In this document: positions 27,108 through 31,779 of the stretch, piece after piece | Position numbering within the stretch: position 1 is the first letter of the stretch | Layout of the letters: every line of letters starts with the position of its first letter | Source of the DNA: Bradyrhizobium sp. SK17 | Lineage (GTDB): Bacteria; Pseudomonadota; Alphaproteobacteria; Rhizobiales; Xanthobacteraceae | Assembly (NCBI RefSeq): GCF_002831585.1 | Contig: NZ_CP025113.1 | Coordinates: forward strand, 496,001-560,000 | Length of the DNA: 64,000 bases | Reading direction: 5' to 3' | Notes under the pieces: generated by a model | Told to the model about the DNA's origin: nothing | The model's database searches: none | What the model saw: only the letters and a program-made list of their open reading frames with translations | Program-made: the position numbers and the translations under genes

Positions 27108-27592
27108 GCCGTTCGCGCTCCCTTGATAATTCCCCAACACACCCCGGTATTTGGACCAGAGATGCAGCACGATCCGCCCTGACAAACGGCCTTCCGGACA
27201 TACCCGTCTTCGAGTCAAGGTGGGTACGGGAGCCAGATCGCTAGAACGCGTCGAAATCCAGCCTCTCAAACCATAATTCGCAGGCGCTCGCAATGCAGTA
27301 GTAGGGTCGAAAGCCATGCGCCTGCGATGAACCTGCCGGTTGCGATTTTTCCCGCGAAATCAAGCGAAAGTCGCCGAAAGGCGGCCGCATGGTGTTGACA
27401 GGCGGATTACCGGATGTAGGCACAGGCGAGGTAGCCCACAGGAACCTGATTCGCTGCGAGCTGCCCCAATCCGGCGCGGGAATGGCTCCAAGATCGCCTT
27501 CAAGGCGCCCTATTGCGGTATCAGTCGACTTGCGCGTGCTACCGGCGGCCGGAATGGCCGGATTGGCCAAACATCTCAAAGGATCGACCCGG
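27108..27592. other. Divergent intergenic region between ctaC and ialB-like gene
   Basis: 485 bases without a supported gene. The right-hand end has the AAAGGA ribosome site of the IalB-like gene. It must contain the promoter of the oxidase operon; I see a TTGACT on the minus strand near 27213 but no convincing -10 partner. An open frame from 27389 on the plus strand continues into the IalB-like gene but lacks family similarity before 27593. Confidence 0.5.
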
Positions 27593-28120
27593 ATGGGCGC
27601 TTCGAACATTCAGGCAGGACGAAAGGCCGGCTGGCTCGGCGGGCTGCTGTTTCTGGCTCTTTCTCTCGGCCTCACCCAGGCGGCGAACGCGCAAGGCGCG
27701 GTCCGCTCGGTCCATGGCGACTGGCAGATCCGCTGCGACACCCCGCCGGGCGCCCAGGCCGAGCAATGCGCTCTGATCCAGAGCGTGGTAGCCGAAGACC
27801 GCTCCAATGCCGGCCTGACCGTGATCGTGCTGAAGACCGCCGACCAGAAGAGCCGCCTGATGCGCGTGGTCGCCCCGCTCGGCGTGCTGCTGCCCTCCGG
27901 CCTCGGGCTGAAGCTCGACAACCAGGACGTCGGCCGCGCCGGCTTCGTCCGATGCCTGCCCAATGGCTGCGTCGCCGAGGTCGTGATGGACGACAAGCTG
28001 CTCGGCCAGCTCAAGAACGCCAAGACCGCGACGTTCATCATCTTCGAGACCCCCGAAGAGGGAATCGGGTTTCCGCTCAGCCTGAACGGGCTGGCGGAGG
28101 GGTATGACAAGCTGCCGTAG
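27593..28120 (+). CDS. Invasion-associated locus B (IalB) family protein
   Basis: 175 residues, secreted: a basic start (RKAGW), a hydrophobic stretch (LGGLLFLALSLGLTQ) and an ANAQG cleavage region. The mature part has the IalB pattern VHGDWQIRCDTPPGAQAEQC, RLMRVVAPLGVLLPSGLGLKLDN, FVRCLPNGCVAEV, and ETPEEGIGFPLSL, with four cysteines likely in two disulfides. The family is named from Bartonella erythrocyte invasion, but in soil bacteria the role is unknown and probably envelope-related. I chose ATG 27593 because AAAGGA lies nine bases before it and the signal peptide then starts correctly. Confidence 0.85.
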   Translation: MGASNIQAGRKAGWLGGLLFLALSLGLTQAANAQGAVRSVHGDWQIRCDTPPGAQAEQCALIQSVVAEDRSNAGLTVIVLKTADQKSRLMRVVAPLGVLLPSGLGLKLDNQDVGRAGFVRCLPNGCVAEVVMDDKLLGQLKNAKTATFIIFETPEEGIGFPLSLNGLAEGYDKLP

Positions 28121-28174
28121 CGGGAGATTTGCCCCCTTTTCCAAGGCACGATGCGACCGCCGAACTGCGAAGCC

Positions 28175-30082
28175 TCATTGATCGTCCTGGTCGTGCCTTG
28201 CTGCCAACAAGTGGCGGCGCAACGCGTTGTCGAACTGAATATGCCCCGGAAGCCAGGCAGGCCGGGTTGGCTTGTCACCGCCAAGAAACGTCGACCTGAA
28301 GCATGGCAGTTGGTCTTTCGAGGTCACCTGACGGTTGAGCGCGTAGGTTACTTCACGCTCAATCCACTTCGATTCTGCTTCTTCGGCGTTCTTCGACCAG
28401 AACAACATGAACATGTCGCTTCGGTCGATCTCCTCAAAAAGACGCCGCTGCCAGATTTCCCCACTCCTCAGTGACACTGCATCGAGAAAGAAGTTGATAC
28501 CAACGCCTTCGAGAACCTGAGCACACTGCAAGACTTCGAGCCGATCTCGACTCGAGTACGACAGGAAAGCGTATTCGAAGTGTCTCGAGCTATCGCCGCA
28601 CAATTGCACCCGCGCCCGCGAATCTCTCGCGGGTGAGGCGACCGTCACGCTGAATTTGAGAATGCCGATCGGCACGCCATCGAGAAAAAAGTTCGCGGAA
28701 ATCTGACCGCTTCGGCCTGTTGGTTCCCTGCTTAGGGTGACGCTGAACGGACACGCACATAACTCGCCTCGCCAGACGACGCTCTGCTCTGACGCGTCGA
28801 TCGAAAAATCCTGCGATTCCAACTTCACCCCAAGGCGTTGGCCGCGCTTTACCGCCGTTTCAAAAGTGCAAACACTCCGGCGTGTTGCCTGACGATCTGA
28901 TTCCTGCGCACGCTTTCGCGCTGCAGACGCCCGGCTTCGGCGATGAAAGAATATCTGTACGAGAATCGTCTCACCAGGCGCACACTCCTCTGGAGAAAAG
29001 GCACTGGCATCGACAACATCTGCTGAGGATGTTCTCGGGCGCCATGAGGGAGATGGAGTTGCGGCGGAGCGGACCAGTTCGAGCAGTGAAGTCGCGACGG
29101 ATGTAATCCCTTTGGCCAAGGCGGCCACAACGTGCGCAAACTCGCTTGAGAACCAGAAGCCAGTTAGAGCGGTCATCGATGCGACGAGAAGGGCCCATCC
29201 TGCCACACGCGAGTTCACCCACTTGCTCGATGGTGCGGGCGGCCTGGCGCTGTCAGAAGGCGATGCTGGTGAGATTTGGACATCATCGTCGGGCGGTGGC
29301 GCCCTCGATGAGGGAAACGAGGCTGGCGAAGGCGGCGGAGGCAGCGATCCCGATGAAGGACGGCTGCTCCTCAACTCGAAGGCTCCATCATCCAATGGCG
29401 ACCGGCCTATCGAAACCAATTCCCTCCCAGGTGGCGATCTCAGTCCAGCTGGACTTGCCTCAGCTCCACGTCGGAGCTCATTCAACTGATTGAGTGAAAG
29501 CTCCCTCAATGGAGGCAGCTCACTCTTTGTCGTTACGGCTTCTTGCGAATATCCAACAAGATTTCTGATGCCCTTGTCTACAACGGTCGAGAATTGTGCC
29601 AAATCGTCGAACGTCGCATATTCGCGATTGACCTTGCTACCGTCGTTCACCTGCTTCGCACGTTCGCGAAACGCATCGAGTTTCTTGAGTTTCTCCGGAT
29701 CGGCTTCGATGCCCGCTTGCATCACCGGATGCTCATCACTCATGATGAACAACAAGATGCGCCGTCCAAGTCGCGCCGCCTCATTGAACTCAAGTTCAGT
29801 CAGCGAGAGCCGATCCGGATTTCGTTCAGGATCGACCGGTGTTTGGCCGTATCTGTGGCTAATCACACAGACGTACGCAAAGGCGTCGCGGACCATCGCC
29901 AAAGACGTATCGATCACGTCCGCTTCAGCCTGCGCCCCGGAAAATTCCATCACCCGCGGCGCGTAGCCCAGCTTCTGGATCGCCTCGATCACCCTCGCCC
30001 GATGCTCCTTCAGGTCGTTGAAGGTGCTCGACAGCATGATCGCCTTGAAGTCTTTGGGTTCATCCGACTTCGTATCGGGCAT
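28175..30082 (-). CDS. DUF4062 - membrane helix - TIR domain protein, candidate defence/signalling gene
   Basis: 635 residues. Residues about 12-95 form a DUF4062 domain (KAIMLSSTFNDLKEHRARVI, then CVISHRYGQTP). A Pro/Ser-rich linker (about 215-285) leads to one membrane helix (about 292-314), a beta-rich segment (about 350-490, ending in ISANFFLDGVPIGILKFSV), and a C-terminal TIR domain from about 498 (YAFLSYSSRDRLEVLQCAQV, FFLDAVSLRSGEIWQRRLFE, MLFWSKNAEES-like, SKWIEREVTYAL). TIR domains of this type often cleave NAD in bacterial immunity; the W-x-x-x-E in SKWIEREV is the region of the catalytic glutamate. The gene is visibly poorer in G+C than its neighbours (29 of 60 bases from 29581 against 45 of 60 from 30541), suggesting transfer. 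Function is inference. Confidence 0.82.
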   Translation of the reverse strand: MPDTKSDEPKDFKAIMLSSTFNDLKEHRARVIEAIQKLGYAPRVMEFSGAQAEADVIDTSLAMVRDAFAYVCVISHRYGQTPVDPERNPDRLSLTELEFNEAARLGRRILLFIMSDEHPVMQAGIEADPEKLKKLDAFRERAKQVNDGSKVNREYATFDDLAQFSTVVDKGIRNLVGYSQEAVTTKSELPPLRELSLNQLNELRRGAEASPAGLRSPPGRELVSIGRSPLDDGAFELRSSRPSSGSLPPPPSPASFPSSRAPPPDDDVQISPASPSDSARPPAPSSKWVNSRVAGWALLVASMTALTGFWFSSEFAHVVAALAKGITSVATSLLELVRSAATPSPSWRPRTSSADVVDASAFSPEECAPGETILVQIFFHRRSRASAARKRAQESDRQATRRSVCTFETAVKRGQRLGVKLESQDFSIDASEQSVVWRGELCACPFSVTLSREPTGRSGQISANFFLDGVPIGILKFSVTVASPARDSRARVQLCGDSSRHFEYAFLSYSSRDRLEVLQCAQVLEGVGINFFLDAVSLRSGEIWQRRLFEEIDRSDMFMLFWSKNAEEAESKWIEREVTYALNRQVTSKDQLPCFRSTFLGGDKPTRPAWLPGHIQFDNALRRHLLAARHDQDDQ

Positions 30083-30243
30083 TGAAAATGTCTCAAATAT
30101 CCGCGCGGCGCGATGAACGCGCCCCCTGGCAACTCCGGGAGATTACCTCGAAGACTTTCCGACACGCAACGGAATAGCCTAGCGGCTCGCACAACCTTCC
30201 GTACAAACCCACCGTTGGGCTGCGGCTGGAAAATAGGTCAGGT

Positions 30244-30837
30244 CTATCGCCCACCCCTCGCATAATAATCGAACAACGCGCCCGCCTCCGCCGACAGCCA
30301 GTCCGCCTCGCCCGTCATGTAGCCCTCGACCTGTCCGCTCACGCCGATCAGGAACGAGATCGGCATGCCGTAGAGCGCGAACGGGGTCTCGATCTCGGCA
30401 GCGCCGACGCGCGAGACGAGACCGCCGGGATCGAAGCCGATCGCAAGATGACGGAGCTTGAGCTGCTTGACGTAGGGCGCCACCAGCGCGCGGTTGCGGT
30501 CGGTGCTGACCGCGACGACGGTAAGATCGCTGCGGCCGCCGGATGCGAGCCGGTCCAGCATCGGCAGCTCGGTCCGGCACGCCGCGCACCAGGTGGCCCA
30601 GAAGTTCAGCAGCACCAGCCCGCCTTTAAACGCGGCGAGATCGATCGCGCCGCCGGCCAGCGAGGGAATCGCCACTCGCGGGACTGGATAAGCGCCTTGA
30701 ACGAGCGTGAACTGGTGCCGGATGGTGCCGAATTGCGGCGGTCCCGACGCGGCGCGCGCCGGCAGGGCGAGCGAAGCGCCGGCGCCGATCATGCCGGCGA
30801 CCACGGCGCGGCGTGTCGGGGCGCGAACAGAAGTCAT
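30244..30837 (-). CDS. TlpA-like thioredoxin-fold protein
   Basis: 197 residues: an N-terminal signal peptide with a twin-arginine-like TRRAVVAGMIGAG start, then a thioredoxin-fold domain of the TlpA/ResA type with the active site FWATWCAAC. It should act in the periplasm as a thiol-disulfide reductant or oxidant. ATG 30837 has GGAG eight bases before it and puts the signal peptide first; a GTG at 30876 overlapping the upstream stop (GTGA) is the alternative. It is the last gene of a set with DsrE-like and DoxX-like genes, divergent from an HxlR regulator. Confidence 0.88.
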   Translation of the reverse strand: MTSVRAPTRRAVVAGMIGAGASLALPARAASGPPQFGTIRHQFTLVQGAYPVPRVAIPSLAGGAIDLAAFKGGLVLLNFWATWCAACRTELPMLDRLASGGRSDLTVVAVSTDRNRALVAPYVKQLKLRHLAIGFDPGGLVSRVGAAEIETPFALYGMPISFLIGVSGQVEGYMTGEADWLSAEAGALFDYYARGGR

Positions 30838-30872
30838 GCCGGGCTCTCCGCTTGGCTTGAGGGCTGCGTCGT

Positions 30873-31376
30873 TCACGACCGGATGTAGGACCAGCCGGCT
30901 TCCTGCAATTCGATGATGCGTCCGGGCCCGTTCGGCACCAGGTCGACATTGTCGAGCAGCACCAGCGGATGTCCCTCGGCGCGCTCCATGCCGAGCTTGG
31001 TGGCTTCGCAGACCACGAAGCGGATGTCGGGCGTGAGCCCGCGCACCACCCGCAGCAGGTCCTTCACCGGCGAAGTGTCGGCGCGCAGCATGTGGACGCC
31101 GGCATTGTAGGCAACGACCTCGATCGCGAACGGCTCGTTGCGCTCCCGGTAGTATTTCGGGAGGTTGAGCGCGGTCGAAATCAGCGCCCGCATCGTGGTC
31201 GGGTCGTCGCTGTTGATCGGCAGCACCACATGATGCACCCGCGGCTCGGGCTTCTTCGGTTCGGGTTTCGAGACCGCGGCGACCGATCCGGTGAGCAGCA
31301 AGGTCACGGCGAACGGCACCGCGAAGGCCAGCGCAAGCGCTGCGGCGAGCGTCAGGAGGCGGCGAGAGACGCGCAT
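30873..31376 (-). CDS. Secreted DsrE-family protein
   Basis: 167 residues: an N-terminal membrane or signal helix (RLLTLAAALALAFAVPFAVTLLL), a Lys/Pro-rich spacer (KPEPKKPEPR), then a DsrE/DsrF-like domain (HHVVLPINSDDPTTMRALIS, VEVVAYNAGVHMLRADTS, VCEATKLGME). DsrE-like proteins act in sulfur relay; the single mature cysteine in FVVCEATKLG is at the place where such proteins often carry sulfur. Placement with a TlpA-like and a DoxX-like protein suggests periplasmic sulfur or thiol handling. ATG 31376 has GAGG eight bases before it. Confidence 0.82.
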   Translation of the reverse strand: MRVSRRLLTLAAALALAFAVPFAVTLLLTGSVAAVSKPEPKKPEPRVHHVVLPINSDDPTTMRALISTALNLPKYYRERNEPFAIEVVAYNAGVHMLRADTSPVKDLLRVVRGLTPDIRFVVCEATKLGMERAEGHPLVLLDNVDLVPNGPGRIIELQEAGWSYIRS

Positions 31377-31386
31377 CGCGGCCACC

Positions 31387-31779
31387 TCACGGCACGCTCG
31401 CGAGCAAGGCGAACTGGCTGCGTTTGGCGTAGGCGACGATCGCGCTCAAGGTCAGCAGCACGAGGGCCGGCACCGGCGAGCCGCCGATCACGAACAGATG
31501 GCTGATGGTGGCGCCGACCATGATGCAGCTCAGCAGCACGCCGCCGAAGGCAACGACCGGAGGCAGCAGGATCAGGATGGCGCCGATAAGCTCCAGCGAT
31601 CCGGTGAAATAGCGGAACCACTGGCCGAGCCCGAGATGCTCGAATTCCGCGACCAGCATCGGCACGCCGTAAAGCTTGGCGGCGCCAGCAGCGGCAAAGG
31701 CCAGCGCAAGCACGCCCCTGACCACCCAGAGACTGACGGATTTCCAGCGCGACGGCGCCGCGGCAACAGCAACTGACAT
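31387..31779 (-). CDS. DoxX family membrane protein
   Basis: 130 residues with four membrane helices. The DoxX pattern is seen in VVRGVLALAFAAAGAAKLYG, then LGLGQWFRYFTGSLELIGAI and LLSCIMVGATISHLFVIGG. DoxX proteins are quinone- or thiol-linked membrane proteins, one of which belongs to thiosulfate:quinone oxidoreductase; others work in oxidative stress. It is the first gene of the DoxX-DsrE-TlpA set, 120 bases from the divergent HxlR gene that probably controls it. Confidence 0.85.
   Translation of the reverse strand: MSVAVAAAPSRWKSVSLWVVRGVLALAFAAAGAAKLYGVPMLVAEFEHLGLGQWFRYFTGSLELIGAILILLPPVVAFGGVLLSCIMVGATISHLFVIGGSPVPALVLLTLSAIVAYAKRSQFALLASVP

Follow-up and report, generated by a model that had tools for sequence, protein, structure and literature searches.

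Can a single bacterial gene encode both the sensor and the effector of an immune response? This question is raised by an open reading frame (ORF) at 28175..30082 (minus strand) of a 64,000-nucleotide stretch of Bradyrhizobium sp. SK17 DNA (contig NZ_CP025113.1), hereafter the window, which has an ATG start and encodes 635 aa. An earlier note, made from the sequence alone, had described it as a lower-G+C gene joining DUF4062, a membrane helix, a beta domain and a C-terminal TIR, and had suggested a one-gene sensor-effector. Our analysis bore out this ORF and gave the order DUF4062, linker, membrane segment, UPA-fold domain and TIR. On balance, we lean slightly towards an immune protein that is encoded by one horizontally acquired gene and tethered to the membrane, and whose TIR NADase would be switched on by UPA-driven assembly.

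The protein was searched against Pfam, and at E up to 1 only DUF4062 (residues 15-102, E 9.4e-18, 64.6 bits against a cut-off of 24.7) and TIR_2 (residues 506-590, E 5.8e-15, 56.3 bits against a cut-off of 28) were matched, both far above their cut-offs and at the two ends that the note had named. Because these two families alone were returned at that threshold, no NTPase domain, the criterion for NLR/STAND proteins, was found in the 635-aa protein, in keeping with the note. A full-length AlphaFold2 model built from a 42-sequence alignment (mean pLDDT 76.6, pTM 0.41) had high confidence over most of DUF4062 (14-182) and over the beta domain (355-481) and TIR (about 503-634), and low confidence across the linker and membrane part; since the pTM was low, the relative placement of the domains cannot be taken from it.

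The beta domain (residues about 353-484; 28631..29026, minus strand) proved real, and structure prediction added a recognisable fold. Modelled alone, it reached a pLDDT of 92. Its six best matches among solved structures (VIA) were to the UPA-bearing proteins ankyrin-B, UNC5b and NLRP1, and the four best Foldseek rows for the domain likewise support the UPA fold. From entry titles and residue ranges, we take the matched stretches to be the UPA parts of those proteins. By its predicted structure, the domain at residues about 353-484 is of UPA fold. In the model no ZU5-like domain was seen before it; the membrane segment and a low-confidence linker precede it.

Proof of UPA from sequence was considered and rejected. 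Run against the PDB sequence set with an E limit of 10, a profile of the beta domain found no UPA entries, and neither the 635-aa protein nor the beta-domain consensus gave a Pfam UPA match. Pfam UPA-FIIND was compared with 44 family members, namely the window protein and 43 of the 47 usable loci described below (L029, L046, L057 and L058 were omitted), and matched one of them, L062, below its cut-off (E 0.022, 15.7 bits against 27). This match names the same family as the structure comparison, which is suggestive only, because about one such match is expected by chance over 44 scans.

The C-terminal TIR domain (residues about 503-634; 28181..28576, minus strand) was supported by Pfam, by the model and by a structure match to the SPARTA TIR. 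The catalytic glutamate region of TIR domains carries the motif S-x-W-x-x-x-E. Glu577 (28352..28354, minus strand), the TIR catalytic Glu, is kept across the module proteins, with an equivalent in all 83 proteins matching the beta+TIR module profile, weak TIR-only matches included. The introduction of PMC13174449 states that TIR activity requires oligomerisation.

We then asked how widely the UPA-TIR unit occurs. With residues 345-635 as the module query, 30 proteins were found, one of them a near-copy of the window protein, and a scan of the genome collection confirmed 52 loci out of 139 candidate stretches; 47 of the 52 yielded more than 100 beta-domain residues, and L067-L069 were weak matches in the TIR part. 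The record titles span Nostoc, Acidobacteria, alpha- and betaproteobacteria, Bacteroidetes, Chlorobi, Planctomycetes, Chloroflexi and a Bacilli metagenome-assembled genome. The module is rare, being present in 4 of 397 genomes of the order, own included. Partner domains were scanned with Pfam in 30 proteins, a non-random set of 20 of the 52 locus proteins and 10 database proteins picked for TIR-like N-termini. Two TIR_2 stretches were present in 14 of the 30 and LRR in 4, while protein kinase, CHAT with TPR-S, PilM and CoaE occurred once each; the second TIR stretch was directly seen to be N-terminal in P0005, P0073, P0077, L019, L022 and L038. DUF4062 was the N-terminal partner in the window protein, P0002 and P0004. 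Further partners were pentapeptide repeats, WD40 and a cyclase (P0039) beside what we read as an FHA-like part, and some members consist of a membrane helix, beta domain and TIR alone. The pairing of DUF4062 with TIR, which the note had considered unusual, is one of at least 9 kinds of N-terminal partnership. UPA-TIR is a portable C-terminal module, rare and patchily distributed, with a changing N-terminal partner.

Several members had other arrangements. Four proteins (L036:8789-10912, L040:406-2499, L047:8705-10843 and L048:4747-6966) have the order LRR, unnamed region, UPA and TIR, with no hydrophobic peak just before the module. The order in PIDD is LRR-ZU5-UPA-DD, which the four proteins resemble, with TIR in the death domain's place. 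At L041:1-5538 a giant protein, whose reading frame runs off the contig, combines lipase-like, CHAT and TPR-S parts with a terminal UPA-TIR. A plasmid search gave 1 record covering 41% of the query, and a viral contig search confirmed 1 of 31 candidate stretches. A contig of the viral collection encodes a 482-aa UPA-TIR protein (L081:1305-2753), whose N-terminus reads as TIR-like and whose adjoining genes read as phage-like.

At the other end of the window protein, the DUF4062 TIR-like domain (residues 14-182; 29537..30043, minus strand) was supported by Pfam, the model, fold matches and a sequence match to KpSwz, which in the PDB sequence set covers residues 15-173 (E 1.9e-7). According to PMC13174449, a May 2026 preprint, DUF4062 is a TIR-like NADase in the Swarozyc antiphage system; KpSwz depends on Glu97, and the phage portal activates it via its C-terminal domain. 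Glu96 of the window protein (29795..29797, minus strand) is the candidate catalytic residue of DUF4062 and aligns with KpSwz chain position 82; we equate this position with E97 by an offset deduced from the 15-C construct in PMC13174449, which may be off by one. Of 69 rows representing DUF4062 relatives, 66 have the equivalent Glu. The structure matches of the DUF4062 part were largely DNPH1/NDT-type enzymes, so such a role may apply; KpSwz was absent among the 50 fold matches listed, and the relation to it comes from sequence. Similar DUF4062 cassettes lead other C-termini, with ATPase, TPR, nucleoside phosphorylase and dynamin-like parts by precomputed Pfam accessions; the nucleoside phosphorylase and dynamin-like proteins, assigned in the same way, are P0029 and P0055. 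Since both catalytic-type glutamates, Glu96 and Glu577, are present, two TIR-superfamily domains lie in one protein, which, judged from its residues, is a double TIR-fold protein. DUF4062+TIR proteins may already be included in figure S1 of PMC13174449.

The membrane part contains a hydrophobic segment at residues 293-311 (29150..29206, minus strand; Kyte-Doolittle peak 1.56) and a hydrophobic or amphipathic segment at residues 318-336 (29075..29131, minus strand; peak 1.51), a possible second hairpin arm. Both peaks are modest, and the model places helices at residues 294-305 and 316-339. The note's hydrophobic segment is thus present, while its count of one helix may have to become two. As modelled, the two segments allow a two-helix hairpin, which would put DUF4062, UPA and TIR on one membrane side; alternatively, the protein may cross the membrane once, or its helices may not cross it at all. 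In the short members L043, L045, L054, P0085 and P0086, K/R clusters lie directly after the helix, and together with the positive-inside rule they point to a cytosolic UPA-TIR.

A helical motif, LSLNQLNELR (residues 195-204; 29471..29500, minus strand), resembles LSxxE(L/M)xxxR, seen between the N-terminal domain and membrane segment in P0039, P0073-P0076, P0081 and P0092; the window's version is a near match that departs from the strict form. Of 77 proteins examined, 8 contain the strict form, whereas 200 shuffles in which kinship was ignored averaged 0.12 and never exceeded 2; one of the 8 matches, in P0004, falls in the DUF4062 active-site region instead.

To examine how the gene reached this site, the DNA that flanks it at higher coordinates (30090-31400) was compared with 60 genomes of the genus, own included, and 12 loci were fetched, the own locus and 11 relatives (L007-L017). 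The gene was absent from the site in all 11 relatives, whose homology ends at 28118-28123 and restarts at 30246-30263. In all 11 the flanking convergent genes, conserved in the relatives, adjoin with short spacers, indicating that 28121..30247 (2,127 bp, 57.0% G+C) is a single-gene insertion; it holds no partner gene, as the note had observed. These flanking genes are presumably a thioredoxin/TlpA-like gene (30244..30876, minus strand) and an invasion-associated-protein-B-like gene (27389..28120, plus strand), and cytochrome oxidase subunits are, as read by eye, among the genes around the insert. The lower G+C also held, at 56.9% for the gene against 65.5% for the window, and none of 581 windows of 1,908 bases (step 100, all outside the insert) was as low. 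Within 27900-30500 only weak repeats were found, with no clear duplication flanking the insert. The empty intergenic site of relatives L007 and L008 carries a palindromic repeat (GTAGCCCGGATG...CCGGGCTAC) that was not seen there in the window. Across the genus, 4 of 195 genomes, own included, matched any part of the protein at E 1e-20; of the three others, two matched DUF4062 alone and one the C-terminal half alone. A protein recorded under the name Bradyrhizobium carries a DUF4062 cassette 73% identical to that of the window protein. The best reading is that the gene was horizontally acquired and that its N-terminal DUF4062 is a swapped-in cassette.

DUF4062 and UPA-TIR also occur as neighbours. 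A DUF4062-ATPase gene follows the UPA-TIR gene in L046, and a DUF4062 gene is convergent with it in L044. The gene upstream in L043, whose N-terminus is lost at the contig end, resembles the C-terminal region of the protein encoded in L046 (29% over 275 aa, E 2e-22) and, from this similarity, is probably of DUF4062 type. These 2 loci plus 1 probable out of 52 suggest that the window fusion joins parts that neighbour each other elsewhere; the L046 DUF4062 is only distantly similar to that of the window. Further such pairs were sought in sets of 395, 150 and 247 genomes, of which 1, 3 and 1 respectively had a match, the seed included each time.

In Nostoc, a NUDIX gene lies just upstream of the UPA-TIR gene at 9 loci (L020, L021, L024, L025, L027, L028, L029, L031 and L057), its best NCBIfam name being NudE, an ADP compounds hydrolase, below cut-off. 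As support for an ADP-ribose product, this link was rejected after a control on the distribution of the NUDIX gene: a close match occurred in 117 of 145 genomes of that family, and in the 30 of 117 loci fetched, the TIR gene adjoined in 1, the seed genome. The NUDIX gene being common and the TIR gene beside it in the seed alone, the arrangement was given no weight and most likely represents one insertion site kept within the clade. In L082 (NC_019761.1, an Allocoleopsis plasmid), the UPA-TIR gene is followed by a Uma2 endonuclease gene, with two caspase-family genes close by, and in a Gemmataceae genome (L050:2508-5402) an LRR-Roc-COR-TIR gene lies directly upstream of a kinase-UPA-TIR gene.

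How might such a protein work? In the mechanism we favour, a two-helix hairpin would anchor the protein with DUF4062, UPA and TIR all cytosolic, and the resting protein would be kept inactive. An infection cue sensed via DUF4062, the membrane or the long linker would free it, and oligomerising UPA domains would then make it easier for the TIRs to assemble, just as UPA helps CARD filaments to form in NLRP1 and CARD8. Once assembled, the TIRs, possibly joined by DUF4062 as another NADase, would deplete NAD+, and the resulting abortive infection would stop phage growth. In NLRP1 and CARD8, according to PMC7794386, UPA oligomerises around the CARD filament and lowers the assembly threshold. UPA directly before TIR, together with changing N-terminal inputs, suggests the same logic of input, UPA-assisted assembly and effector. 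The best reading is that UPA-TIR is the constant executing part and that DUF4062 would be a second NADase or a trigger. The sensor-effector idea of the note is thus retained in part: the one-gene insertion and both catalytic glutamates fit it, but DUF4062 itself has a TIR-like NADase fold and is not a mere companion of the TIR.

A number of observations weigh against this mechanism. Sequence profiles give no link between the 635-aa protein and UPA, and with the full-length model as query Foldseek ranked a glycosidase first, at 18 A rmsd. Beta-sandwiches are common, and likeness of fold is no proof of like function; as modelled, the UPA domain could bind without an assembly role. One membrane helix, rather than two, would place DUF4062 and TIR on opposite sides. 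The ORFs surrounding the gene (14-35 kb, read by eye) look ordinary, no systematic defence scan of the window having been made. Among 70 neighbour ORFs scanned, out of 437 called in 49 loci, DUF4062, CHAT and TIR occurred in 2 each, which is little defence signal, and several housekeeping families were among the 25 of 100 neighbour families listed.

The roles of the two ends could be reversed, with DUF4062 executing as in Swarozyc, the membrane-UPA-TIR half serving as its sensor and oligomerisation scaffold and the TIR being regulatory. PMC13174449 presents the DUF4062 of KpSwz as a proven N-terminal NADase effector with a C-terminal sensor; Glu96 is kept, and the many other C-termini led by similar cassettes also fit. 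We nevertheless regard this as unlikely, since the TIR and its glutamate stay invariant across the family while LRR, kinase, WD40 and other domains replace one another at the N-terminus, as would suit a fixed effector served by changing inputs. Signalling is raised by the PADLOC comparison, in which the best match was ThsB (E 2e-7), with a weak match to ThcB4: instead of depleting NAD+ itself, the TIR might, in the manner of Thoeris, produce a signal derived from ADP-ribose that acts on an unlinked effector. We consider this very unlikely, because the PADLOC table carries no cut-offs, ThcB4 scored 19.6 against a cut-off of 220, and no ThsA-like or other partner is in the insert, the rest of the genome not having been searched. 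The ordinary neighbourhood, the sparse defence signal near family members and partners that are signalling domains (the cyclase with the FHA-like part in P0039, and kinase) would suit a membrane protein that signals or acts as a scaffold and is not dedicated to defence against phages. Both catalytic glutamates are kept, however, and the composition is foreign, the family rare and patchy, and the company of TIR, DUF4062, CHAT, LRR and WD40 would be typical of conflict systems, making this reading quite unlikely.

Compared with known systems, the window protein shares with KpSwz the N-terminal DUF4062 with an aligned catalytic Glu; PMC13174449 also describes KpSwz acting as a single gene and a patchy DUF4062 distribution. 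In place of the C-terminal winged/HTH portal-binding domain of KpSwz, which was not found in the window protein, there are the membrane segment, UPA and TIR; the match to KpSwz stops at residue 173, and the main text of PMC13174449 lacks the words membrane and transmembrane. Thoeris ThsB, SPARTA and Cat1 share the TIR family or fold and catalytic Glu, but the insert has no partner gene, ThsA-type included, and the protein has no Argonaute or CARF domain and does have UPA and a membrane segment. NLR-like STAND proteins have TIR or DUF4062 at one end, and the DUF4062-type genes beside UPA-TIR in L044, L046 and probably L043 are a further likeness; they differ by the NTPase, which was not found here.

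The eukaryotic UPA proteins (NLRP1/CARD8 FIIND-CARD, UNC5 and ankyrin ZU5-UPA-DD, and PIDD) likewise combine a variable N-terminal input with UPA directly before a C-terminal assembling domain. They differ in that the effector here is TIR and not a death fold, no ZU5-like domain was seen in the model, and Pfam UPA-FIIND misses the window protein and reaches only the one sub-threshold bacterial member. The bacterial UPA-TIR order mirrors UPA-death domain and UPA-CARD proteins. As a tentative suggestion, which we hold somewhat less probable than its negation, UPA-TIR would be what corresponds in prokaryotes to the UPA-death domain and UPA-CARD outputs of PIDD, UNC5, ankyrins and NLRP1/CARD8, and possibly their ancestor, with UPA as an ancient assembly switch for immune effectors. 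The TRADD-N section of PMC8195603 covers ZU5 autopeptidases of bacterial origin and UPA-Zu5 fusions; no description of a bacterial UPA-TIR protein was found in titles and abstract openings, with subscription journals mostly outside the search.

If the proposal is true, the bacterial form of UPA sits on TIR NADases, and in the window protein DUF4062 supplies the NADase a second time. UPA is known as the piece that enables assembly of the NLRP1 and CARD8 inflammasomes, and its fold in bacteria, at the same position beside an immune effector, would add one more to the components of human immunity that have a counterpart in bacteria. A bacterial UPA would offer a simple system for asking what UPA does, and the window protein is a direct test case for why two TIR-fold domains share one protein.
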